From positions 1 to 57,042 of the forward strand of contig CAKNJS010000012.1 of the NCBI GenBank assembly GCA_930986645.1: a stretch of 57,042 nt of DNA. Direction: 5' to 3'. Below, piece by piece: positions 24,122 to 37,665 of this stretch (its first letter is position 1; every line of letters starts with the position of its first letter). The translations under genes and the position numbers were made by a program. Below the pieces are notes generated by a model, which was not told the origin of the DNA, searched no databases, and saw nothing but the letters and a program-made list of their open reading frames with translations. Origin of the DNA: an uncultured Lachnoclostridium sp. Its GTDB lineage: Bacteria; Bacillota; Clostridia; Lachnospirales; Lachnospiraceae.

Positions 24122-27100
24122 TTATCGATTCTTTTTTCTCATGACCACTGCCGCCACTGCCGCTGTTGCAGATAACATGACAACAATACCTGCTGCCACT
24201 GCCGGCGTAGTATCTCCTGTTTGGACAGCACCACTGTTCCGGTCGGTCAGTTTTTCACTTCCGTTTGCTCCGGTTCCTTTTTCCATACTCTCTCCGGTAC
24301 TGTCGCTGCTCCCGTTTTGACCCTTATTTCCGTTTCCGCCATGACTGTCATCCGGTATATTCTCCCCCGGTTGCTGACTTGGTTCCTTGCTCGGGTCATC
24401 GGTATCGCTTCCGCCCTGATTCGGATTATCCTCATCTTCTATTGCTTTATACTGGGCGATTATAACCGTGTCGCCTTCCGGCATGGTAAACGTAGTCTCA
24501 GCCGCAGTTGCATCAAGGAACAAGCCGCCCCCGTTACTTACCCAGCCTGAAAATTCCATTCCTTCCGGAGCCGGTTCCGCCTTAATTTTTACCGTCTCTC
24601 CTGCCACATACTCACCGCTTCCGGTGCCGTTCTCAACTGTAAGTTTATAAGAAGTTACAACAGGTTCTGTCACCTTGACAGTAAATTCCGCCTCTAGATT
24701 TCCGTGAGAAACGATAATTTTCTTTTCTCCGGTTTCTGACGTATCAAAGCCTCCAGCATACATATTGCTGTTCATTGGAATTACATTCTCAGATCCATCG
24801 CTGTATGTTTCGGTAAGCTCTCCTCCCAGCAAAGAGATCTCTCCCGCGAACCCCTTCTCATACTCGACAATATCCGGCTGTTTGGTAATCTCAATCTTTT
24901 GCAGCTCAGGTGCCATTTCCCCATTGCGTACAGTGCAGGTAATTCCTCTCAGTTCGAGATACCGTTTGTCAACATTGTCATTATGATACACACGAATTGT
25001 AACAGAGTTGCCGCTCAGACCGGTTTTCTCATATATCCTTACTGTATTGCCGCCCTGATCCCTTGTCTGTTTCACCTCATCACTACATACTTCCTCTCCA
25101 GAGTCGCCATCTGTAATCACCACTTTGAAATCAGCCGAATCATATTTATTCGCCCCGTCAATTGCAAAGGAAACAAAGTTCCCCTTAAACTCGGCATAAG
25201 CGCCTTTAAAAGTAGTATCAACCTGGGAATCTCTTGCCTGCCACTGATCTCCATTTTTCGAGTCTGTATTTCCTCCGTCCACTTCACCATTATCTTTGTA
25301 AATCTCGAATTTTACTCCCTTATTAGCTGAAGAAGGATTATATTTCTCTTCTATATTAAGCGATGTCAGTGCCATCTGCGCTCCAGTCAGGGCGTCCGTC
25401 ACAGCGATGATATCCGCCTGTGTCAGCGCTGTATCTTCCAGCTGTTTCATGGCTGCATAATATGCATTGTAGAAGGTCATCCAGCTGTCCCTTGTATAAA
25501 GTTCTTTTTGCGCATCGTCAGAAATGATTGCTGCCGCCGCTTCAACTGCTGCCTGCAGCGCATCTTTATTCAACACGCTTTCCTCTGAACTTATCTCCGC
25601 AGACAGTTCTTTCTCTGTTCCCATTTCATCATAAATCCGAAATGTAATGTCTCCTTCCGTTCCTTCCGGAAGTATAAACGCACATTTTACCTGTCCGTTT
25701 TCTCCTACTGTTTCCTGCCTGATTCCAAGCAGATCTCCGTTTTCCGACTGGATTATGCTCATTGCCTGTACACCATGAGCAAATCCTTTTGCAGCAGATG
25801 TCAGCAGACGCTGTTCTGCGGTGTATGTATACTGAATTTCTTCTCCTGCCGCATCAGAAATCGGCGCGGTATACGGGTTAATAGAAGCTCCGTCCACAGT
25901 AAACGGATATGCATACATCTTGCCACTGGCAGCATTGTAGACAAAAATTTCCAGTCGCTTTGACTCGCTTCCTTCAGGCGTATCCACTTCCAAATTCAAC
26001 TTCGTTTCTTCTCCCGGTTTTATCTGAGCATTTGAACTAATGGATTTTTCTGTCTGAAGCACTCCAATGCCGCCACTGAGCACCGCCGCCACCGCTACAT
26101 TGACCTCAGACTCTCCATTATTCACAACCGGTACTGTAATATGCAGTTTCCGCTCCGATACCAGTTCTGACGTCCTTACCCCCTCCGAACTGACGGAGAT
26201 TGGTTTCACTACGGTCTGATCCGCTGTATCTTCAGAGGAATATACTTTAAATGCATCAATAATGAGATAATCGCCATCCAAAGCGCTCACGGTTAAAGTA
26301 TACTCTCCGCTCGGAAATACTTCTGACTTGAATATGGAGACTTGATTTGTCTTTTGCTCACTGTAAGCACTGCATTCACCCTCTTGCACTGTCTGCCCGG
26401 ACGCATCCTTTATCGTAATTTTATACTTTCCCATATTGTTCTCAGTCCGGCTGAACATCTCTATCTGGGTGCCTTTGAAAGGCACCTCCGCATATACACC
26501 GTCATGCCCCCACCTGCCTACATTGCAGTAGCTCATCGTCTTACCGATACATTCCTCAGCGTTTGTCGGATTGTTGCTCGGAGATGACTTTTCCCAGTGG
26601 CTGCCATGATACTGAACAGTTCCTCCCTGATCGTCTATTATTGTTCCTCTTTCATTCTTTATGAAATTGAGTTCTTCTGTAAGCTGGTTTCTGACAATCA
26701 CAATATTGACAACGCAATCATTTTCTATCTTTTCATATAATGGTATAAAATTGGATTTTTCTCCGATCGTCTGTCCATTTATGCTCTTGAGCACATCACC
26801 GGTCTCAAAGCCGAACAACGAAGCCTGAGAGTCTTCCGGCACTGATTCCATATAGACTCCGTCCAAGCCGCCCGCTCCTGTAGACGACATAATAGCATCA
26901 TCCAGAGCACTGATTGTCGCTCCCAGCCATGTTTCCCTTTCCAGTATATCTTCCGAACCGTCCGGACCTGTCTTTACATAAACCGGCGCCTGATACTCGC
27001 ATCCCGGCTTTCCAAACTGATCCATAGGGAAATTTTCAAATCCTACAGCTGCCATTGCTTCTTTATTTGTTACGGTATAATCATTCTGTTCGGGATCTTG

Positions 27101-29128
27101 GAACATAGGGTCTGCATTTACGGAATTAACATCAAACCCCAGATTTTGCCACCAGCTTCCAGGATATGCTGTCTTCATTCCAAAATCATAAAACCAGTTA
27201 TTATCAATCGTATCCTCACTGACACGGAACCTGCCTTCATTCGTCGCCGCAAGTTTGTAAGGGGTTCCCATAATCACAATATTACGTTCAATTATATCTT
27301 GCGAGTCTTCAAACGTACAATGAAGGTTAAACGCTCCGTTTACGAGAATATTATTGTAAACATTTCTGTGGAATCCTTCACGCAGTTTAATTCCCATATT
27401 CAGGCAGAGATTATTATAAATTTCATAATTCGTAGAGCCATCATCCAGATCTATTCCGAACGTCGAGCCACCGTCAACACGTCCTGCAAAATGCATTCTG
27501 TTATCATGGATTGTAATTGTATCGATCACGTCCAGTTCACTGTACGGCTCTTTTGCCGCCCCATTGTTTCCTCCCGTATCATATCCGCCAAGAGACCAGA
27601 ATCTGTCACGCCCCCATGAATTAAACATTCCATGGTCATCAGTCTCTTTTTGTACGTCAAAAATATCATTATATGCTATTTCATGACCGCCAAATGTACC
27701 GTCTCCTACATTAACACCTGCTCTCGGCCCTTCATGCAATGTATTATGGACAATCTGAATTTCGTATGCAACTGACAACGCTACATGGCTCGACTGCTTC
27801 TCCCATATTCCTACATTCTGAATATGGTTATTGGAGATTACAGCCTCGCGCGGATAATGTTCTGCCTTCGGTCCAGGAGTTTTATCGTCTATCGTTGTTT
27901 TGTGAACATATTTTTCGTCCGTCTCCGGTTCCAGTGGAGCAGTATAATTCCAGAACGACGCCTCACGGCAGGAATCCGGGAATCCTGCTGCCAGTACGCC
28001 AGAAGATCCGATATTAATGATCTCATTATTGTCAATCTTCACACCTTTAGAATGTCCGGACAGAAATACCGCATTCCCACCGATATTTCGGATTGTTCCG
28101 TTTTCAAATACTACATCTTCCGCATCCTGAATAAACAGCGCTCCCGAGCGCACAACGCACCAGTCGCTCCTCATCAGAGGAACATATTTCCCGGTAAACA
28201 TGGTTCTTTTCGTGTTTTCCAAAGTGAGCCCGCTAAATGCCAGATTCGTAACCTGTTCTCCGTCTTCTTTACCTTCCACATGAAGAAGCTCCTCTGTCAC
28301 AGCGCCTTCTACAGAAGCCTTGTTCAAATCCGTACCTTTCTGAGGCCATATATAGAGTTTCCCTTCCTCTCCGTCATAGTACCATTCTCCCGGGGAATCC
28401 AGCTCTTCAAAAATATTTTCCACCATGATCGCACTGGACAGCATACCCGAACCGCGGTTATTATCCCCCACCCACTCATAGGATAGTCCAAGAGCTGAAT
28501 CATTTTTTCCTGTTATTTTATAAGAGTTGCCTCCCCACCTGTTGGAGTGGAGAGCTCTGATATATCCTCCGGCAGGATTTGACCACTTCTCACTCCTCGC
28601 CTTAATATCTGCCTGGCTTGTACTGCCCTGAAGCACCTGATTCGCATCGCAGTTGGGATATCTGGCCAGTATCTGCTGCTCGCCGTCAACAAACAATTAA
28701 TCGATGCCGAGCCCTTTTTCAACTGATGCGACTTGAATTTCGCCTTCATAAGTTTCCCACTCAAGATCTGCCAGTGTTTTCGCCCCTGTAAGCACAGCAT
28801 TTTCGCCTACATATGTAACATTGCTGTCCTCAGGCCCAAATTCTACCGGTTTTTCAAGAAAATACTTTCCTTCTCCGATATAAACAGTTGCTTTTCCCTT
28901 ATCTGAAGTCACTTGTCTTGCCGCTTCGCGGGCTTTATCAATAGTTGCATAAGGGCTGCTTTCGCTCCCGTTTCCTCCAGTATCACTCCCAGAAGGCGAC
29001 ACATAAATATCATATTTCACATCTTGTCCGCCCGCCTCATCTGTGCCGGCCGCCTGTGCGCCCAGAGGGATGCCAGTCACAGTCATCACTGCACACAGAA
29101 GCGTCGCACACATTTTCTGGATTTTCAT
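24122..29128 (-). pseudogene. Anchored beta-helix glycosidase, broken by one in-frame TAA
   Basis: An ATG at 29128 with AAAGGAGGAG upstream opens a signal peptide and the start of a right-handed parallel beta-helix (IYVSPSGSD, SSPYATIDKARE). After 143 codons a TAA (28699-28697) interrupts the frame, which then goes on unchanged for 1524 codons to 24122. The text around it, GLGID-stop-LFVDGEQQILARYPN, is a conserved site where Gln is expected, so CAA to TAA is likely. The rest holds the beta-helix (to about 600), a PDZ-like domain (about 720-800), jelly-roll modules, FIVAR, Ig-like and InlB_B-like repeats, then AVQTGDTTP, a membrane helix and MRKKNR. The catalytic family is probably GH141- or GH136-like; I cannot decide which. 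The substrate is presumably host glycan, given the GH95 neighbour. Confidence 0.8.
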
Positions 29129-29171: not shown

Positions 29172-29366
29172 CACCTACTATTTTCTGTATTTCGGCTATT
29201 TTTCGACTTTATGCATAAATTCATGTCTATTTACATACTTTTTTACCATTATTTTATATATTATCTTAATTTTCAGTTAAGTTAACATACAAAAATATTA
29301 TTGGGGAACAACTACACACGCTTAAGAATTTCATAACTATTTTTCTTTTTCTTTTAGAGTTTAAAC

Positions 29367-29395
29367 ATACTTTGGACACAATTTCTGTCTATACT
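29367..29395 (+). promoter_or_regulatory. Promoter of small RNA copy 1
   Basis: TATACT at 29390-29395, conserved as TATAAT in the other copy. At 17 bp upstream both copies carry ATACTT instead of TTGACA, and both keep CACAATTTC in the spacer. The non-standard -35 suggests an activator or another sigma factor, or simply a weak promoter. Confidence 0.5.
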
Positions 29396-29401
29396 ATGAA
29401 T

Positions 29402-29545
29402 CAGATAGTTGATAACACAACTATCTCCCCCCTCATAAAGTATTGGCATCCCGGGGGACCGGGATGTCGCACTTTACTCTCATTCCTTTAGATAACTATA
29501 AAAACAACGAAAACCCGTCAGTCTCTCGGCTGACGGGTTTTCGCT
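29402..29545 (+). ncRNA. Candidate small RNA, copy 1
   Basis: About 140 nt. A 9 bp hairpin AGATAGTTG/CAACTATCT is followed by an unpaired CCCCCC tract (29427-29432), a stem TAAAGT/ACTTTA (29436-29441 and 29471-29476) that holds an inner stem of 10 bp with a GGGA loop (29445-29468), a conserved single strand, and a terminator hairpin (29509-29543). In the second copy the inner stem has a different sequence but still pairs, which supports an RNA structure. A C-rich loop can pair with Shine-Dalgarno sequences, as in RsaE- and FsrA-type regulators of Firmicutes. No open reading frame of note. I do not recognise it as a named RNA family. Confidence 0.6.
29509..29545. terminator. Bidirectional terminator of sRNA copy 1 and the TIR operon
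   Basis: AAAACCCGTCAG and CTGACGGGTTTT with an 8-base loop. Both strands have T-rich tails, so it ends the small RNA on the plus strand and the acidic-protein end of the TIR operon on the minus strand (stop codon 30 bp away). Confidence 0.85.
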
Positions 29546-29573
29546 GTTTACCGGGTTCAAAATCCGCTCCATA

Positions 29574-29915
29574 TTATCTTGTCTTTACCAATACTTTTTC
29601 CCACTCTTGGTTTCCTTCATCCTCTTCTCCGGTATCATTCAACATCTCCTCCAGTTCAGCCTGACTGGTTTCCAGTTCATCCAACATGGAATCCAGTTCA
29701 CTTGCTTCAGGTTCCAGATTCTCATAGAACTCATTATCAGGCTCAAACTCCGGCAGTTCCAGAGTATCAGGTGTATCTGTAAGTTCACTTCTCAATTCCT
29801 GAAGCTCTTCCAGATTCATATCTTCAAGAGCCTCATCCCATTCCGATTCACTGCTCTCCGGCTCCGAGACATCATCTACATCGCTGACCGAAAATTCTCC
29901 AAATTCATCACACAC
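29574..29915 (-). CDS. Small highly acidic protein of the TIR operon
   Basis: 113 residues with a very high content of Glu and Asp and only a few Lys or Arg, mostly predicted helical (LEELQELRSEL, LDSMLDELETSQAELEEML look like coiled coil). I do not recognise a family. The GTG start follows AAGGAGG by 10 bases. It is the last gene of the four-gene operon, 34 bp behind the ATPase gene. Size and charge suggest a protein partner such as an inhibitor, adaptor or DNA mimic for one of the other three products; this is inference. Confidence 0.72.
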   Translation of the reverse strand: MCDEFGEFSVSDVDDVSEPESSESEWDEALEDMNLEELQELRSELTDTPDTLELPEFEPDNEFYENLEPEASELDSMLDELETSQAELEEMLNDTGEEDEGNQEWEKVLVKTR

Positions 29916-29949
29916 TATTTCCGCCTCCTTCTCTCACCCAAAATTATTT

Positions 29950-32628
29950 CTATATTTTCTGTTCATTTTCTCTAAAATGGCTGTAAAAAAACTGTTTTTC
30001 TTTTTCAGACATAGAAAAATCCCTGTCAAGCGCCATTTTCCGCGCCAGTTTGATCCGTGCACATATACACAGTTTTCTGTATTCCTGCGCCTTATACTTT
30101 CCTGTTTCTTCCTGTGCCAGTTCAGGGAGCAGATAGATACATTTTTTCATATCTTCCACAGTTCGGAAAGATTTTTTATATTTTCTGAAAGTTGTATCTG
30201 CAATAAATTCCGCGTCCGCGCGTATTTTAAAATCACACCGTTCCCTGCATTCTTCACAGTACCGGCAGTCCTGATATGGTTTTAACATTTCCTGACGGGT
30301 CTTCCAGTAGGCGTTTCTCCGGGCTGTCTCCTCATCTTCCACCCGCAGGCGTATTCCTTCCTTTTCCCGGATATCTTCTGTCCTGACCAGCTGCGGCGAG
30401 TCCAGCAGACTGTAGAAAACAAACGCTTCGCCTGTTCTCAGTCTGGACAGCTGTTCTCTCTGGCTGTCATCCATATTTGTACTGTCAGCGATCAGATCTT
30501 TTTCAATTCCCTGTACAAGCCGGAATGACACTTTTATATCTGTATTTGCCACCACTTCTCGGCTTACTTTTGCAGGAGACTGGTCTGCAATAATAATACT
30601 CGTTCCATAGGAACGGATCTCGGCAATCATATCCTGAAGCGCCCGGACCGTAGTGCCCTGAGCACCGGTTCCGTTGTCTGAAGCATTTTTTCCTCCCAAC
30701 AGTACGTGAGCCTCATCGATCAGGATCGCATTTTTTAATTTACCGTCCCCCGCCTGATTATGTTTCGTATATACACATATGTTAATAAGAAGAAGCGCCA
30801 TAATCAGTGATTTCTGTTCCGAGTTGTCAATCGAATTCAGCTCCAGCACAGTGGGCGTCCGCAGCAGATCTTCTATTGGTATTGTATTGATATTATCGTA
30901 AATATTGCTGTTCTGCTCAATCAGATTAGTCAGCCGGAATAAGCCGCCGCTCTGTAAGTTCGATTTGACGTCTTTGCTGTAATTACTTGATTCCAGCAGT
31001 TCTTTAAACACAAGAATAAATTCATACAGCCCGAAAATCCGGACATCCTCGTCCCCCTGCATGCTGTAGTCTTTCCAGCCGTATTTTGTATAACACACGC
31101 GGATTGCATTTAAGAATAAAATATCCAGCGGAGACGGCATGGAAAATGCTGCCTCAAATGCACTCACCAGACTCGGAATATACTGCTCGATCCGGATTCC
31201 CTTAGGCGGGATAAACGGATTTACGATAAACGGGGACACCCTGTTATTTCCCGGGGTGAATATCTGCAGATTTTCCACGCTGTCAATCATAGCCCTGTAT
31301 TCTGTTTTTGTCGGCTCTATTGCCAGAAACGGGATTCCTCTTTTTGCAAACTGCAGCAGAAGGTGAATAGAGAAAGTAGTTTTTCCTGTTCCGGGTGTCC
31401 CTGTAATAAGTGCGTGCCGCGTAAAGATCTTATCCGGACATCCTATGGGAATTATCTGCTGATCGCTGGTAATAAGATTTCCCAGCAGGATATTATCCTC
31501 ATCCACAACCGCGCCCGCAAACTGTTCCTGACTTCCGGCTGTCCTGTTTTCATTCAGAGCAGCAGTTCCCGGTTCATAGACAGGCAGTTTAAAAAAGGCA
31601 GCAGCCTCTTCCGCCGAAACAATATACGCAATTCGGTACATCTGTTTTATCCCTGATACACTCTGCATCAATTTCCGATTCCTGTATTTACGGAGCATTA
31701 CGGAGTTCATATTCCACGGATAATTAATAAACTGCCGTACAAGACATATCTTTTCTGCACTTAAATCCCTGCACACGAAATCTGCCGAACTGCTTACTCT
31801 CTCTCCCGCGCGCAGATGACTGGAAACCCTCGTGGCTAAAGATTCCGCCTGTTCCCTCCCCGCAAATATAAAGATGTTGTATTGAAACATCGGCGCGCTC
31901 ATCCGTTCTGCGTAATAGCGGAACACACTGCACGGTTCCTTGGCAGAAGGATCCCTTATCACCTGCCCGGCATAGGGACGGCCTTTTTCCAATTCGTCGT
32001 ACTGGAGCGCCATACTGCGGTACAGATTCTCCTCTCCGGCAGTCATCCTGACAGGAAAGATCTGCATTGATACAGCAGAGTTCGTCATCTGGCTCATCCC
32101 CGCGATCATATCTTCAAAATTAGAGATATTTTTATTCGGAATAACATCCGCATAATAATACCCTGCCGATATCTGTGTGCTGACAATAAATTTTTCCTTT
32201 TTAGTCAGGCTAAGCATACAGCTGTCGTTTATCTGTTCCAGCAGACCGGTCAGGATTTCCCCGTTTTCCGGACCATAGGAAATTCCGTACCGGCATGCAG
32301 AAAGTGTCGCAGTAAACTCGCCGACTGCACGTTCCAGCTTTGCCCGCACATTTTTTTCACTGTTTCCGATCTGACGCAGTACAAGAAACATACGTATCCG
32401 TGAGCGCACCGACTGATTTTTCACGCCCTCTGTAATCCACAAGATCTCAGCGCAGGCGCCATTGCCTGACAGGCTGTGATACCCGGAAATAAGACTGACA
32501 AACCTTTGATAAACTTCTCCTCTCCACTCCTTTTCACCGGAAATGGATGCCGGCGGAAAAGATACAATTTCCATCCAGTCGATTCCCAGATAATTTCCTC
32601 CATTTAATTCATATACTCCTGCTTTCAC
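29950..32628 (-). CDS. HerA/DUF87-type ATPase of the TIR operon
   Basis: 892 residues. The first 390 are a variable N-terminal region with no clear motif. Then comes a FtsK/HerA superfamily ATPase: Walker A GTPGTGKTTF near 410, sensor-like EPTKTEYR, Walker B AILIDEAHVLL near 637, then TSIIIADQSPAKV and an arginine-finger region. After the ATPase core lies a tight Cys cluster CRYCEECRERC near 785, probably a zinc site, and a basic helical tail. HerA-like motors form hexamers and are used in several defence systems (SIR2-HerA, DUF4297-HerA). The GTG start follows GAGGTAGTAC. It lies 18 bp after the SPFH gene. Nucleic-acid or protein translocation is possible; the partner is unknown. Confidence 0.88.
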   Translation of the reverse strand: MKAGVYELNGGNYLGIDWMEIVSFPPASISGEKEWRGEVYQRFVSLISGYHSLSGNGACAEILWITEGVKNQSVRSRIRMFLVLRQIGNSEKNVRAKLERAVGEFTATLSACRYGISYGPENGEILTGLLEQINDSCMLSLTKKEKFIVSTQISAGYYYADVIPNKNISNFEDMIAGMSQMTNSAVSMQIFPVRMTAGEENLYRSMALQYDELEKGRPYAGQVIRDPSAKEPCSVFRYYAERMSAPMFQYNIFIFAGREQAESLATRVSSHLRAGERVSSSADFVCRDLSAEKICLVRQFINYPWNMNSVMLRKYRNRKLMQSVSGIKQMYRIAYIVSAEEAAAFFKLPVYEPGTAALNENRTAGSQEQFAGAVVDEDNILLGNLITSDQQIIPIGCPDKIFTRHALITGTPGTGKTTFSIHLLLQFAKRGIPFLAIEPTKTEYRAMIDSVENLQIFTPGNNRVSPFIVNPFIPPKGIRIEQYIPSLVSAFEAAFSMPSPLDILFLNAIRVCYTKYGWKDYSMQGDEDVRIFGLYEFILVFKELLESSNYSKDVKSNLQSGGLFRLTNLIEQNSNIYDNINTIPIEDLLRTPTVLELNSIDNSEQKSLIMALLLINICVYTKHNQAGDGKLKNAILIDEAHVLLGGKNASDNGTGAQGTTVRALQDMIAEIRSYGTSIIIADQSPAKVSREVVANTDIKVSFRLVQGIEKDLIADSTNMDDSQREQLSRLRTGEAFVFYSLLDSPQLVRTEDIREKEGIRLRVEDEETARRNAYWKTRQEMLKPYQDCRYCEECRERCDFKIRADAEFIADTTFRKYKKSFRTVEDMKKCIYLLPELAQEETGKYKAQEYRKLCICARIKLARKMALDRDFSMSEKEKQFFYSHFRENEQKI

Positions 32629-32646
32629 GTACTACCTCATACCACC

Positions 32647-33987
32647 TTATATCATACTCAGCAGACGGCTCTTGCGCTCTTCAAATTCTTCTTCCGTCAA
32701 GAGGCCGCTGTCTTTCATAAATGCCAGCTTCTCTACTTTCTCTTTGAACTCATCCATAGAAAGCTTTACCGTTTCTTTTCCGGTATCAGAAGCATTTTTT
32801 TCTTCTTCCTCAGATGTTTCACCAAATGATGCGGGGAAATCCGTCTTCAGCTCTACATTATCCGGAAAACCGTCATCCCACAGGTCCTCTGCATTTTCTT
32901 CTGTCTGGCGGTCTGCTGCAGAATGGAAGAATTCATTCGCCGCATCTTGGAACATTCCTCCTACTGCCCCGCCTACTCCGAGTCCGACCCCGACTCCCAT
33001 CAGGCCGTTTCGTATGTCGCTTCCGCTACCTTCATTTTCCGCCAGTCCCTGCATCACCTGAGCCTGTTTTCCTTCTTTCCACGTATATCCCAAACGCTGC
33101 TGACTGTATGCCTCGGCATCAATATCCAGTTTTCTGTGGTACTGATCCGCCTCCGCCTCTAATTTACGCCGATATTTCTCAGCCTCTGCATCCATCTGTT
33201 TCACGCGCACGTCTCCGATATGCTGTGCCGCCTTTACATCGCTGTCAATAAGAGCCTGCCGTTTCCGGATATCGCCTTCCAGATCAAGGGTCACATTTTT
33301 CCCGTGAAGTCTCAGCAGATCTCTGTAGGCAGGGTCTTCTTCCGGCATTGCAAGGCTGTTGATCCAAAATTGTACAACAGAGAGACCGTATTCTGAAAAC
33401 CACCGGTTCACCTGCACCTTCAGATCTTCCGATGTCTCAGAGAGTTCTGTTTCAATATCAAATACAGAATACTCTTTTCTCTGAAAAATCTGCGGAAGCA
33501 GATTTTTAATTTCCTGCGTGATCGCGGCTCGAAAATAATTACTGATCGTATTATTGTCCAGAACAGCTTCTGTTCCCACCAGCCGTTCGATTAATCTTCG
33601 GGGATCTGTTACAACAAGACTCATCTCTCCGTTGGCTCCGATCCGGAACGGATAGTTTCCATTATTTTTGTCTCTGAAAATGATATTGCCCACTCCCCAC
33701 GGTATGGACATATGCTCTGCCATATTAATATAATATACTTCACAGTGAAACGGGGATTCTCCTCCAAACGGCAGGTTAATCAGCTTATTCAGAAGCGGAA
33801 TATTATCTGTATGTAATGTGTATGTTCCCGGCAAAAAGAGGTCCATTGCCTGTCCTCTGAGCATCAGAAGAGCATTCTGGGATTCTCTTACAACCAGCTG
33901 TGAATATGTTGTAAAATCCTGCCGGGGATACTTATACACCAATGTTCGGTTATCTCCCTCATATTTAATTACATCTAAGATACTCAT
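32647..33987 (-). CDS. SPFH-domain protein with SHOCT tail
   Basis: 446 residues, of the family often annotated as virion core protein-like. The first 230 residues are an SPFH/band 7 fold (VVRESQNALLMLRGQAMDLF, then LPGTYTLHTDNIPLL), followed by a coiled coil (about 235-295, Lys/Glu/Asp-rich), a Gly-rich segment (GLMGVGVGLGVGGAVGG), an acidic stretch and a C-terminal SHOCT domain (about 415-446; EKLAFMKDSGLLTEEEFEERKSRLL). SPFH proteins assemble into rings or scaffolds at membranes. AGGAGG of this gene overlaps the stop of the TIR gene, and its ATG lies 11 bp beyond, so the two are translationally coupled. It may organise the TIR protein. Confidence 0.92.
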   Translation of the reverse strand: MSILDVIKYEGDNRTLVYKYPRQDFTTYSQLVVRESQNALLMLRGQAMDLFLPGTYTLHTDNIPLLNKLINLPFGGESPFHCEVYYINMAEHMSIPWGVGNIIFRDKNNGNYPFRIGANGEMSLVVTDPRRLIERLVGTEAVLDNNTISNYFRAAITQEIKNLLPQIFQRKEYSVFDIETELSETSEDLKVQVNRWFSEYGLSVVQFWINSLAMPEEDPAYRDLLRLHGKNVTLDLEGDIRKRQALIDSDVKAAQHIGDVRVKQMDAEAEKYRRKLEAEADQYHRKLDIDAEAYSQQRLGYTWKEGKQAQVMQGLAENEGSGSDIRNGLMGVGVGLGVGGAVGGMFQDAANEFFHSAADRQTEENAEDLWDDGFPDNVELKTDFPASFGETSEEEEKNASDTGKETVKLSMDEFKEKVEKLAFMKDSGLLTEEEFEERKSRLLSMI

Positions 33988-33998
33988 TTACTTTCCTC

Positions 33999-36458
33999 CT
34001 AAAACAGACGTTTTCCTTTCCATCCGAATTTTTTTGCAGCCTGCATCGTCTCTTCGCTGACTCCCCGGAACGGATAATGTCTGATATTGGTAACCATACC
34101 GTTAACCGTAACCAAAGCATCCATGGACGCTCCATGCTGCATCAATAACTGAATTACTTGATAGGGGCAGTCACTGTTAATTGCGCGGAAAAGAATCGGA
34201 AACTTATCATCACTTCCTGTCAGCGTCTTGCCCAGTGTCTGCCGAATAGTACCCTTAAATATCTGCTTTCCCTTTGAAGTAAAAGCCCAGTTCGGATTTG
34301 CACCTTTACTCAGAAGCAGTTCGACAACCCCGGGCTGGTCCGCATATGTCAGACCGGTATCTTTCAATGGTGATACAGCTCCATATAAAGGACTGAATCT
34401 GCGGCTCTCTTGATATACCTGCTGGGTGGAAAAGATATTGGCCGCTGTTTTATTGTACTCAACAATCTCTTCATTCACATCTGCGCCTGCTGCTGTCAGA
34501 ATTTTCACGATCTCTGCATTGCCGAAGTAGACTGCATATCCAAGAGCAGAATAATCCACATATCCTCCGTCAAAAAAGATCTGCCACCGGAATCTTGGGT
34601 TCGCCCCATAGCGGAGCAGCAGATCTGTCATTGCCGCCTTCTTCATATCGATTGCCGCTTTGAGTGCAGGAAAATAAGAATTTTCTTTTATTCCATATTT
34701 CTGGTTGTATGCCAGACCGGCTGTATTTGCTGCCGCGCCTCCCTTTAAAAGCGCTTCCGCCACATCTGTATCCGCATACCACACAGCCCAGATCAATGCG
34801 CTGTCTTCCCTGTAAGTATCTCCGTCACTGTAGCAGACATTCTGCATCGGATCAGCTCCATTCCGGAGAAGAAATTCTGTCATCTTTCTGGAATTTGCTT
34901 CAATCGCATAGTATAACAGAGGCCATTGCGCTGAGGATTCCTGTATCATCTCACACGCATCAGCACCGTGCTCTGCCAATATGCCTGCTATTTCTGTATT
35001 CTGTGTCATTGCAGCGGTATAAAACAGAAGAGATTCACTGCGGTTTTTCTCCTTACGCCTGAACTGTACTTTCGTATTGACATTTAATCCTCTGTCTATA
35101 AATTTACTCAGCAGGGCAGTATATCCTTCCCTGCATATTGCAGTCAGCAGGGCATTGTCCGTAAGGAGCTGCGGGTACTGGCCCAGCACATAGTCCACAC
35201 GCGTTTCATCATTGATCAGACTGTAAATTTTAATAAGAGCCGGTGCAGTCTGAAATGTCAGGATTTTCTTTTCCTTTTCTTCCATCTGCGGTGAAATATA
35301 TTTTTTCAGCTGATTAATATACGTTGACCATTCCGCGCGCACCCCTTCTGTATCGCCCTTTTCCTTTCTGTAATCCAGATAGATCAGAAGTCCGAGGTAT
35401 GCCCTTGCACAAGTAATATCCTCCTCGAGCACCTCTTTAAATTTAATATCCAGCTGCTCAAACTTCTGCGTATTGATATTCATAAACGCGACGCCCAAGC
35501 GGGATTCAATCTTAGACTGGTCAGCAGAAGCCGTCGTCTGCGCTTCTGTATTCGACGCATTATCTGCCGGCAGATTTTTTTCAATAATTCGGTAAAGATC
35601 CTGCATCGCACCGATCTTTCCCATATCCAGAGCCTGCATTGCCGCAAGTTCTGCCGGCAGTTCATATGGATCCATATCCTTATAGCATGGAATCAAAATC
35701 TTTTTATAATCCTTCCTCATCAGCGCAATGAAACGGCTCCACTCATTTTTTACCCATACTGCAGATGCATACTCCGCTTTAGTACTGACTACCAGCATAA
35801 TCCTTGCAGTATTCAACGCAGAGAAAATATAAGGCTCATACTCCTTGCCTGCTTTATCTTCCAGCGTAATTCGTGAAAAAAACACTTTATACCCAAGATC
35901 TGCCAGATGCTGATAAATATCCTGCGCAATCACGCTGTCTGCCGTACGTCCGCCCGCATCGTCATTTTCTTTATAACATATGAAGATATCATAGGCTTCT
36001 TCATCTCTGGAAATCGCGATCAGCCGCTTCTGCACTTCTGCTATTTTTACGGCATCCTTCATATACTGTCTCTTTGCTATTCCGTCTGAATATTTCAGGG
36101 CGAGCTGATAATCAATATCTTGCAGAAAGTCATCATAACTGACTCTGTGACATGTCGGCACCCATTCATAAGTGTTCGGATCTTCCACATAGTCAATACC
36201 AAATCTGCACAGCGCACAGCACCAGTGTGCCTCCGCATCCGTGTTATCTTCCGCTGCAATTCTTTCATAGGCACTCAGCGCCTGATCAAATTCGCCTTTC
36301 CTTCGAAAAAAATTTCCTCTGTTAAATGCGGCAAGTCTCGCCTCATTGTCCATACGCGGTATTGTCATCGTACTTCCGCAGTATTGACAGGTTGCTATTT
36401 TATTATCTCCATTCAGCTGGATATCTGCTCCGCAGACTTTACATTTTAAAACCGGCAT
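33999..36458 (-). CDS. Zinc-ribbon/TIR/ankyrin-repeat protein
   Basis: 819 residues in four parts. A zinc ribbon with Cys6, Cys9, Cys24 and Cys27; a helical tetratricopeptide-like stretch (about 40-150); a TIR domain (about 155-295) starting YDIFICYKEND with EPYIFSAL near 208 and VWVKNEW, whose Glu239 aligns with the catalytic Glu of NAD-cleaving TIRs; a helical linker; and seven or eight ankyrin repeats (about 465-810; examples ILAEHGAD, FLLRNGADP, LLLSKGANPNW). The N-terminal half is a TIR architecture common in gut Firmicutes. GGGAGGGGATTTT precedes the ATG. First gene of the operon. Likely the effector, with the ankyrins as sensor or partner-binding part. Confidence 0.92.
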   Translation of the reverse strand: MPVLKCKVCGADIQLNGDNKIATCQYCGSTMTIPRMDNEARLAAFNRGNFFRRKGEFDQALSAYERIAAEDNTDAEAHWCCALCRFGIDYVEDPNTYEWVPTCHRVSYDDFLQDIDYQLALKYSDGIAKRQYMKDAVKIAEVQKRLIAISRDEEAYDIFICYKENDDAGGRTADSVIAQDIYQHLADLGYKVFFSRITLEDKAGKEYEPYIFSALNTARIMLVVSTKAEYASAVWVKNEWSRFIALMRKDYKKILIPCYKDMDPYELPAELAAMQALDMGKIGAMQDLYRIIEKNLPADNASNTEAQTTASADQSKIESRLGVAFMNINTQKFEQLDIKFKEVLEEDITCARAYLGLLIYLDYRKEKGDTEGVRAEWSTYINQLKKYISPQMEEKEKKILTFQTAPALIKIYSLINDETRVDYVLGQYPQLLTDNALLTAICREGYTALLSKFIDRGLNVNTKVQFRRKEKNRSESLLFYTAAMTQNTEIAGILAEHGADACEMIQESSAQWPLLYYAIEANSRKMTEFLLRNGADPMQNVCYSDGDTYREDSALIWAVWYADTDVAEALLKGGAAANTAGLAYNQKYGIKENSYFPALKAAIDMKKAAMTDLLLRYGANPRFRWQIFFDGGYVDYSALGYAVYFGNAEIVKILTAAGADVNEEIVEYNKTAANIFSTQQVYQESRRFSPLYGAVSPLKDTGLTYADQPGVVELLLSKGANPNWAFTSKGKQIFKGTIRQTLGKTLTGSDDKFPILFRAINSDCPYQVIQLLMQHGASMDALVTVNGMVTNIRHYPFRGVSEETMQAAKKFGWKGKRLF

Positions 36459-36492: not shown

Positions 36493-36557
36493 TCATACTT
36501 TTTTCTTAATATTTTAGCATTAGTTTATAATTTTCTTTTTTCTTTTATGATTCACTC

Positions 36558-36586
36558 ATACTTCTGTCACAATTTCCTTTTATAAT
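36558..36586 (+). promoter_or_regulatory. Promoter of small RNA copy 2
   Basis: Perfect -10 TATAAT at 36581-36586 with ATACTT 17 bp upstream (36558-36563). Conserved CACAATTTC in the spacer, as in copy 1. Confidence 0.55.
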
Positions 36587-36592
36587 AAATTC

Positions 36593-36730
36593 AGATAGTT
36601 GATAAACAACTATCTTTCCCCCCTCATAAAGTTAAGGCACTGACAGGTGCCGCACTTTACTCTCATTCCTTTTAGATAACTATAAAGACAACGAAAACCC
36701 GTCAGCCGAAAGGCTGACGGGTTTCCGTTT
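36593..36730 (+). ncRNA. Candidate small RNA, copy 2
   Basis: About 136 nt. The hairpin AGATAGTTG/CAACTATCT straddles the predicted start, followed by UUUCCCCCC (C6 at 36618-36623), the stem TAAAGT/ACTTTA (36627-36632 and 36654-36659) with an inner 5 bp stem GGCAC/GTGCC (36636-36651), the conserved ACTCTCATTCC stretch and a terminator (36695-36730). The inner stem differs from copy 1 but pairs. The C6 tract can form 6 pairs with GAGGGG in the TIR gene ribosome binding site (36464-36471). The exact 5' end is not known. Confidence 0.6.
36695..36730. terminator. Bidirectional terminator of sRNA copy 2 and the hydrolase gene
   Basis: AAAACCCGTCAGCC and GGCTGACGGGTTTCC form a strong stem with a GAAA loop (CGAAAG). 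On the minus strand it follows the hydrolase stop codon (36736) directly and is trailed by TTTTCGTTGTCTTT. Confidence 0.85.
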
Positions 36731-36735
36731 TCATC

Positions 36736-37665
36736 TTATTTTCTGTGTTCTTCCAGCCATTCCAGCAGATCCTCATATACCTGCTGCCGGTCCGTCTCAT
36801 TTAAAATCTCATGCCGGTCTCCCGTATATAACCGGAGCGTTACATCCTGTATGCCCGCTGAACGGTACTTCTCATAGATTTTCCGGACGCCCTTTCCAAA
36901 TCCGCCTACCGGATCTTCCGATCCTGATACAAAAAGTACCGGCAGTCCTTTGGGAATCATGTACACGCTCTCTTTTCTCTGCATATTTATCATGCCGAGA
37001 AACATATTATAATACGCATTCACGGTGAACCGGAATGTACAGAGCGGGTCTGCGGCATACTTTTCAAGCCGCTCGTGATCACTGGTAATCCAGTCTGCCT
37101 GTGTACGGGCAGGCTTAAACTTCTTATTATACCCGCCGATCGCGAGGTCGTCCACCAGCCTGCTCCTGTAGTGCCAGCCGCGGAATACAGCCATAATACG
37201 GCAGAGCCTTTTCCCGAAAAGAAGTGCGGCTTTACTGTGATCCTCTACCGTACCCATAAGAATAACCCCGGACAGTCCGTTCCCGTACATCTCGATATAC
37301 TGTCTCAAAAGGGACGAACCCATGCTGTGCCCCAGCATAAAATACGGCACATCCGGATATTTCTTCGCTGTGCGCTGACGGAGTGTATGGATATCTCCAA
37401 GCACACATACATTTCCATATTTTTCATTGAAAAATCCGTACTCGGACTTTGCCTGTACGGATTTTCCGTGTCCGAGATGGTCATTTCCCACTACATAATA
37501 TCCCTTGTCACAGAGAAACTGTGCAAACTCATCATATCTTTCGATATACTCCACCATTCCATGGCAGAGCTGGACCACAGCTTTGACTTCCTTATCGGGT
37601 TTCCATTCAATCGTATGGATCTCTGTGTTGCCATCTTTTGATGGGAAATAGAACTCATCTCTCAT
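36736..37665 (-). CDS. Alpha/beta hydrolase (lysophospholipase/monoacylglycerol lipase type)
   Basis: About 309 residues, cytoplasmic. Motifs: QLCHGMVEYIERYDEFA (oxyanion region), GHGKS, nucleophile elbow GHSMGSSLLRQ near residue 110, a catalytic Asp in FVSGSEDPVG near 245 and a His in GDRHEILNE near 280. It belongs to Hydrolase_4 (serine aminopeptidase S33 / monoacylglycerol lipase-like) proteins. The citrate synthase stop overlaps a possible GTG start at 37674; ATG 37665 is preferred because AGG lies 11 bases upstream. Cotranscribed with citrate synthase. The substrate is probably a lipid ester but cannot be read from sequence. Confidence 0.85.
   Translation of the reverse strand: MRDEFYFPSKDGNTEIHTIEWKPDKEVKAVVQLCHGMVEYIERYDEFAQFLCDKGYYVVGNDHLGHGKSVQAKSEYGFFNEKYGNVCVLGDIHTLRQRTAKKYPDVPYFMLGHSMGSSLLRQYIEMYGNGLSGVILMGTVEDHSKAALLFGKRLCRIMAVFRGWHYRSRLVDDLAIGGYNKKFKPARTQADWITSDHERLEKYAADPLCTFRFTVNAYYNMFLGMINMQRKESVYMIPKGLPVLFVSGSEDPVGGFGKGVRKIYEKYRSAGIQDVTLRLYTGDRHEILNETDRQQVYEDLLEWLEEHRK

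Follow-up and report, generated by a model that had tools for sequence, protein, structure and literature searches.

The contig CAKNJS010000012.1 of an uncultured Lachnoclostridium sp. (assembly GCA_930986645.1), analyzed over positions 1 to 57,042 and referred to here as the window, carries a four-gene operon that looks like a relative of toxin-deployment machinery, with a TIR domain of the type that cleaves nicotinamide adenine dinucleotide (NAD) in place of a classical toxin. In gene order, the operon encodes, all on the minus strand, a zinc-ribbon/TPR-like/TIR/ankyrin-repeat protein (TIR-Ank; 33999 to 36458, 819 amino acids, ATG start), which is the candidate effector, an SPFH (Band_7_1) protein with a C-terminal SHOCT domain (32647 to 33987, 446 amino acids, ATG start), a HerA/VirB4-like ATPase with a conserved N-terminal region (29950 to 32628, 892 amino acids, GTG start), and an acidic protein (29574 to 29915, 113 amino acids, GTG start) in a slot that related loci fill with acidic-leader proteins, several of them carrying an effector domain. 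We tentatively read the operon as the TIR-carrying member of a family of loci in which the ATPase handles effectors encoded directly behind it, so that the TIR-Ank effector would be deployed from a membrane scaffold in an ATP-driven manner; this is plausible to us, if short of probable, and effector deployment is the best reading because of the context of the wider ATPase family.

Genes encoded behind the ATPase

The ATPase subfamily comprises 12 loci besides the window (L027 to L031 and L110 to L116), and the wider family 92 distinct loci (these 12 and 80 others), again without the window. Since L115, on a 5-kb contig, ends ahead of any downstream gene, 11 subfamily loci were scored for the gene that follows the ATPase; genes in the loci of relatives were called as simple longest-open-reading-frame picks, the loci share ancestry, and the p values given are descriptive. 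The next gene starts acidic in all 11, with a net acidity of 13 to 42 over the first 80 residues (mean, 29; at least 20 in 10 of the 11, with L113 as the exception); the 166 genes of these loci average 2.9, and the acidic protein of the window scores 31. In five of the 11, the acidic-slot gene carries a recognized effector domain, namely, an ADP-ribosyltransferase (ART) in L031, where a second acidic gene bears a WHH nuclease, a relative of WHH nucleases in L116, and, in L030 (assigned by BLAST kinship), L112, and L113, a metallopeptidase-like domain, each of these three loci having a related small gene next. The acidic-slot proteins of L110 and L111 have cysteine-protease-like ends, by eye only. 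The initial annotation of the operon, drawn from the letters of the window, had the acidic protein restraining the module, and this part of it was not supported: because 5 of the 11 relatives carry a recognized effector domain in the slot, a leader or cargo role is the better reading, and an antitoxin or brake was rejected as the first reading of a gene whose counterparts are acidic leaders, with a protease-like end seen in two more. The acidic protein is shorter than 120 residues in 4/4 loci with a TIR gene versus 0/8 without one (12 comparable loci, the window included and L115 left out), and the 181-residue acidic protein of L028, which has no TIR gene, likewise carries no recognized effector domain.

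Across the wider family, a first downstream gene lies on the same strand within 300 bp in 87 of the 92 loci, and a second gene is present in 75. Families were tallied at E ≤ 1e-4, per family and not per protein, with overlaps not resolved. Nuclease toxins are frequent among the first genes (Colicin-DNase, 20/87; WHH, 20/87; Endonuclea_NS_2, 9/87; LHH, 8/87), with DUF6782 (2/87) and Ntox15, ADPrib_exo_Tox, and SprT-like (1/87 each) being rarer, and the second genes match SUKH_6 (17/75), SMI1_KNR4 (16/75), SUKH_5 (14/75), DUF6985 (8/75), and YezG-like (3/75). The control consisted of 72 genes six or more positions away from the ATPase, which matched 80 families; no nuclease-toxin, SUKH, or DUF6985 family was among the 25 listed, each unlisted family having at most one member. 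ADP_ribosyl_GH (1/72 control genes) comes from the locus that carries the ART toxin and is a possible antidote, and one further control gene (L033:15268-15531) is immunity-protein-like by eye.

Upstream of the ATPase (80 of 83 upstream genes tallied, L027 to L029 left out), Dynamin_N was matched in 16/80 and YidD in 3/80, the latter being found in L031 and, by eye, in L110 and L112. An E. coli plasmid locus combines two dynamin-family genes, a hypothetical gene, an ATP-binding protein, an HNH nuclease, and SMI1/KNR4; when 5426 E. coli genomes were searched for this type of locus, only its own genome matched. Behind some of the ATPase relatives, the first or second gene encodes a glycine/serine-rich hydrophobic protein with, by eye, a membrane-active look (L053, 9755-10396; L155, 7175-7948; L052, 10062-10742; L148, 9973-10665).

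Two candidate arguments about targeting were set aside. An N-terminal hydrophobic segment occurs in 5/87 cargo proteins and thus about as often as in the background (72/744 open reading frames), which says little either way, and the lack of signal peptides was therefore dropped as an argument against Sec export. The motif [DE][LI]P[DENQRK] lies in the first 130 residues of 18/87 proteins (the window and the first downstream genes, near-duplicates removed) versus 40/1025 other genes, and in 200 shuffles it averaged 4.3 occurrences with a maximum of 12; as it was picked after looking, it is a lead only and was not retained as a universal targeting motif.

Operon architecture and relatives

The intergenic gaps of the operon are 11, 18, and 34 bp, and the ribosome binding site of the SPFH gene (AGGAGG) overlaps the stop codon of the TIR gene (TTTTAGGAGGAAAGTAAATG), both as initially annotated. 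All four genes are open. Terminator-like inverted repeats, identified without a terminator scan, flank the operon before the TIR gene and behind the acidic gene, the latter being an inverted repeat with a T-run (29502 to 29549, minus strand), and an Rfam search of the locus returned no match near the gathering score.

A contig scan yielded three full-length relatives of the ATPase, in L027 (72% identity), L029 (51%), and L028 (47%). The arrangement is not due to chance, because L027 and L029 repeat all four genes in identical order; recurrence elsewhere, which the initial annotation had asked of its gene set, is thus found in these two loci and, without SPFH, in L114. In L027, a single in-frame stop interrupts the TIR gene shortly ahead of the Glu motif. 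L028 encodes SPFH, a zinc-ribbon protein, the ATPase, and an acidic protein without a TIR gene. L114 (genome G347) has a shorter ATPase with an acidic gene and a zinc-ribbon-TIR gene behind it, and no SPFH gene in the stretch examined. Between the window and L027, the acidic protein shows 64% identity; its counterparts in L029 and L114 share place, acidity, and short motifs with it and give no BLAST match. The SPFH tree groups the window with L027 and L029 in a single supported clade.

Built from six full-length ATPases, profile A1 (matches at E ≤ 1e-20) hit 48/397 genomes of the same family, 7 of them nearly full length, including the window's own and G338, in which a TAG was flagged within the match. 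It also matched 47/392 genomes of the same order (nearly full length in the window's own genome, G467, and G696) and 7/348 genomes in a phylum-wide sample (the window's own being the only full-length match). A Priestia plasmid carries a full-length match (28.6% identity; profile positions 8-867) with no SPFH gene in the stretch examined. No ATPase relative was confirmed in IMG/VR, and unannotated phage records gave two matches to the ATPase core only; the result from viral collections is neutral with respect to an anti-phage role. Another ATPase of the wider family is encoded elsewhere in the window's genome (L034; G000:C13:12000-28000), with an 807-residue protein behind it.

Two SPFH-centered modules

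SPFH genes, called with profile A2 at E ≤ 1e-5, are present in 10 of the 12 subfamily loci versus 0 of the 80 other ATPase loci (Fisher p of about 1e-11, not corrected for kinship), the two subfamily loci without one being L114 and the short contig L115. Matches to the TIR-Ank protein were present in 21/299 family genomes (counting its own), frequently as tandem genes that differ at the C-terminus, and none was found on plasmids. From 19 of the 20 other genomes (G163 left out), we obtained 20 zinc-ribbon-TIR stretches, three of them shorter than 7 kb, which contain the ATPase in 0/20 and an SPFH gene in 13/20. SPFH is therefore associated with the ATPase subfamily as well as with the TIR family, in keeping with the partner role first proposed for it. 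A net acidity of at least 20 is reached by 0/259 open reading frames of these ATPase-free stretches, which argues that the acidic gene travels with the ATPase. Since the acidic gene goes with the ATPase and the TIR family goes with SPFH, the operon of the window is a meeting point of two SPFH-centered modules (ATPase with acidic protein; zinc-ribbon-TIR), and the SPFH tree does not decide which of them came first.

The TIR Glu motif is kept in L029 and L114 and, by a strict regular expression, in 23/36 TIR-family proteins of the ATPase-free loci, 13 being without it. SPFH, 4TM, and zinc-ribbon genes recur in related loci. In five loci (L210, L211, L213, L220, and L225), three or more zinc-ribbon-TIR genes whose C-termini vary lie close to an SPFH gene, possibly forming a TIR repertoire system of its own.

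Domains of the four proteins

Pfam matches in the TIR-Ank protein comprise TIR_2 (1.4e-12; residues 158-280, 35619 to 35987) and Ank (3.1e-19; residues 442-663, 34470 to 35135), these and the following domain coordinates being on the minus strand and derived from residue numbers. Glu239, in the motif VWVKNEW (codon at 35742 to 35744), is intact, as are the TIR and ankyrin assignments of the initial annotation; we take its position, by family rule, to be that of the catalytic Glu in NAD-cleaving TIR domains, and it would thus supply the residue expected of such an enzyme. The N-terminal zinc ribbon stands as to its cysteines (Cys 6, 9, 24, and 27; 36378 to 36443), with no Pfam match above cut-off. 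The second product is an SPFH protein with a SHOCT tail, as proposed (Band_7_1, 3.4e-41; SHOCT, 1.1e-7, residues 417-443, 32659 to 32739).

In the ATPase, the Walker A (GTPGTGKTT; 31375 to 31401) and Walker B (AILIDEAH; 30706 to 30729) motifs are intact on the minus strand, and the earlier designation as HerA-like holds for the ATPase core only. The core matches DUF87/HerA in Pfam (2.4e-8), the PDB chains matched by the ATPase profile are HerA (best, 5.4e-11), and the best PADLOC match is mad8 (1.6e-17), followed by HerA (2.9e-14); the NCBIfam HerA models fall far below their cut-offs (e.g., 37 versus 800 bits), and CedD scores best in NCBIfam (2.3e-25; 89 bits versus a cut-off of 600). Four cysteines (Cys 788, 791, 794, and 798) lie near the C-terminus. 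The acidic protein contains 43 D/E versus 4 K/R in its 113 residues, has no Pfam family above cut-off, and gives a match to LmuA/DUF4297 (0.0056; 14 bits) that we judge to be composition noise.

Genomic setting

A repeat element of about 170-200 bp flanks the operon on both sides (upstream copy, 36557 to 36760; downstream copy, 29360 to 29560; both minus strand), and a further copy lies at G000:C32:24732-24900. The element has a terminator-like hairpin, a conserved GGAATGAGAGTAAAGTGC...CTTTATGAGGGGGG, and, by eye, a second hairpin, and it was found in 21/21 genomes of the genus searched. In several relatives, other cargo is found between or beside repeat copies, either close to the same citrate synthase-lysophospholipase pair or at other sites; it includes large surface proteins and a methyltransferase-like gene together with a Vsr-like gene, and tyrosine-recombinase-like genes adjoin full or partial copies (names by eye). 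The setting fits a horizontally filled hotspot, integration being suggested by partial copies (about 70 bp) near recombinase-like genes.

The defence-island setting implied by the initial annotation found no backing in the window. PADLOC matches among its 37 other open reading frames (mad2 in 2 genes, best 8e-27; QatD, 4.4e-24; mad3, 2.2e-16; MTase_II; mad8; and a few others) were judged, without being looked at individually, to be lookalikes, leaving no clear defence island. A large surface-protein gene (24122-29128, minus strand) is split by one in-frame stop at 28697-28699.

Proposed mechanism and alternative explanations

Effector deployment could proceed as follows: (i) the SPFH ring would seat the ATPase at the membrane; (ii) the ATPase would grip the acidic leader, perhaps since a poly-acidic chain resembles the DNA threaded by HerA-type pumps; and (iii) ATP would power the loading or movement of the effector. 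In the window, a separate small protein would serve as the leader, and TIR-Ank would be recruited by its zinc-ribbon, TPR, or ankyrin parts and act by NAD cleavage; both the DNA-like gripping of the leader and the effector role of TIR-Ank are things we infer. Because relatives carry immunity genes, export of the effector in competition is tentatively favored over its release inside the own infected cell as abortive defence. If the ATPase family does handle downstream effectors, it would represent an unrecognized form of toxin deployment in Firmicutes and on at least one E. coli plasmid, and two conflict toolkits, TIR/NAD enzymes and toxin-immunity pairs, would be linked via one SPFH scaffold. 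A bolder version, in which a HerA-type ring derived from DNA pumps, on an SPFH scaffold (dynamin-type in related families), threads toxins by DNA-mimicking poly-acidic leaders, with the window as a split version bearing a TIR effector, would be a new machine, and we consider it rather unlikely.

Several observations weigh against effector deployment: (i) the acidic leader belongs to the subfamily of the window and is no rule of the wider family, because behind the other ATPases the first gene shows no more than mild acidity (mean net acidity of 6.1 versus 1.1 for the genes of their loci); (ii) no channel or other secretion component was recognized; (iii) the toxin and immunity genes beside the ATPase could instead form a defence cassette; (iv) no toxin domain is found in the acidic protein of the window and no immunity gene behind it, and the acidic proteins of L027 (113 residues), L028, L029 (92 residues), and L114 (87 residues) also lack a recognized effector domain; (v) the link between TIR and a short acidic protein does not amount to four independent cases, because the window, L027, and L029 are one clade; (vi) TIR may not depend on the ATPase, because zinc-ribbon-TIR and SPFH genes occur together without it in 13/20 stretches; and (vii) the structure model of the ATPase is poor (pLDDT of 41.7).

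The operon might instead be an intracellular anti-phage module in which TIR-Ank depletes NAD when an SPFH-ATPase platform senses infection, much as in SIR2-HerA (Nezha), a published NADase-HerA defence (PMC11559045). The conserved TIR Glu motif speaks for this, as do the zinc-ribbon-TIR genes beside SPFH in 13/20 stretches, often several with different C-termini, which have the look of a sensor repertoire, the HerA/FtsK-linked conflict systems, some with TIR in their neighborhoods (PMC10853773), and the variable hotspot, where one relative carries a methyltransferase-like and a Vsr-like gene (by eye). The ties of the wider ATPase family to toxin and immunity families, the lack of a SIR2, DUF4297, or ThsA component in the operon, and the absence of a clear defence island from the window make it less likely; of the immune module initially proposed, co-occurrence, the TIR Glu, and the SPFH partnership were supported, acidic restraint and the island setting were not, and it remains a live rival.

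Less probable still is a membrane-stress or housekeeping module, in which an SPFH scaffold with zinc-ribbon and 4TM partners maintains the membrane, the ATPase and TIR having been added for regulation: the SPFH-SHOCT architecture is common (PMC3581485) and its partner genes recur, yet neither the effector domains of the acidic slot nor the patchy distribution of the full-length ATPase (7/397 family genomes) fits housekeeping. The same low probability attaches to a degenerate toxin locus, in which the acidic protein would be a leader left behind when its toxin was lost and the operon a remnant that gained a TIR gene. An acidic leader without a toxin domain and the in-frame stop in the TIR gene of L027 would be expected of decay; the four open genes of the window, the conservation of the acidic protein in L027, and the features shared by its counterparts in L029 and L114, even with no BLAST match, would not. 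Effector deployment thus keeps our preference among these explanations.

Comparison with known systems

The initial annotation did not recognize the four-gene set as a described system, and a limited search of open-licence literature likewise found none. Thoeris consists of a ThsB TIR protein and a ThsA effector, the former a bacterial TIR with a catalytic-type Glu, as in the window; the operon differs in having no ThsA-type partner, and no Thoeris model was among the PADLOC matches. In DUF4297-HerA, a HerA-type ATPase acts with a nuclease effector. The operon has no SIR2 or DUF4297 and has SPFH and acidic genes in addition, and its ATPase core matches HerA yet falls far below the NCBIfam HerA_antiphage cut-offs. 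SIR2-HerA (PMC11559045) pairs a HerA-type ATPase with an NAD-cleaving effector, an arrangement that the operon may share. Of MADS, mad8 alone is matched, by the ATPase, and the remaining three genes of the operon match no mad component.

Type VII secretion (EssC/YueA FtsK-HerA) resembles the operon in that an FtsK-HerA-class ATPase is associated with toxins in Firmicutes; the window ATPase differs in that one ATPase core is recognized, and no LXG/WXG was among the 15 families matched by the 87 cargo proteins (E ≤ 1e-4). The capture systems of PMC10853773 resemble the operon in the recruitment of HerA-class ATPases into conflict systems and differ in being of the DNA-restriction type, the terms "polymorphic" and "immunity protein" each having a count of 0 in the accessible portion of that text. 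SPFH-SHOCT proteins (PMC3581485) have the domain pair of the second gene, and the TIR, ATPase, and acidic context is not in the passages compared. In the part of Zhang et al. 2012 (PMC3482391) that was available, FtsK/HerA ATPases are tied to type VII and FtsK-related ones to type IV secretion systems, and the words SPFH and dynamin have counts of 0. We do not file the window as a polymorphic toxin locus of the kind described there because it has no toxin domain behind the leader, such as those of L031 (ART, WHH), L116, L112, L113, and L030, and no immunity gene, a terminator-like hairpin and the flanking element following the acidic gene instead. It is to these polymorphic toxin-immunity systems that the relatives of the ATPase are alike, with a variable C-terminal toxin behind the leader in several of them and an immunity-type gene next in many loci of the wider family.

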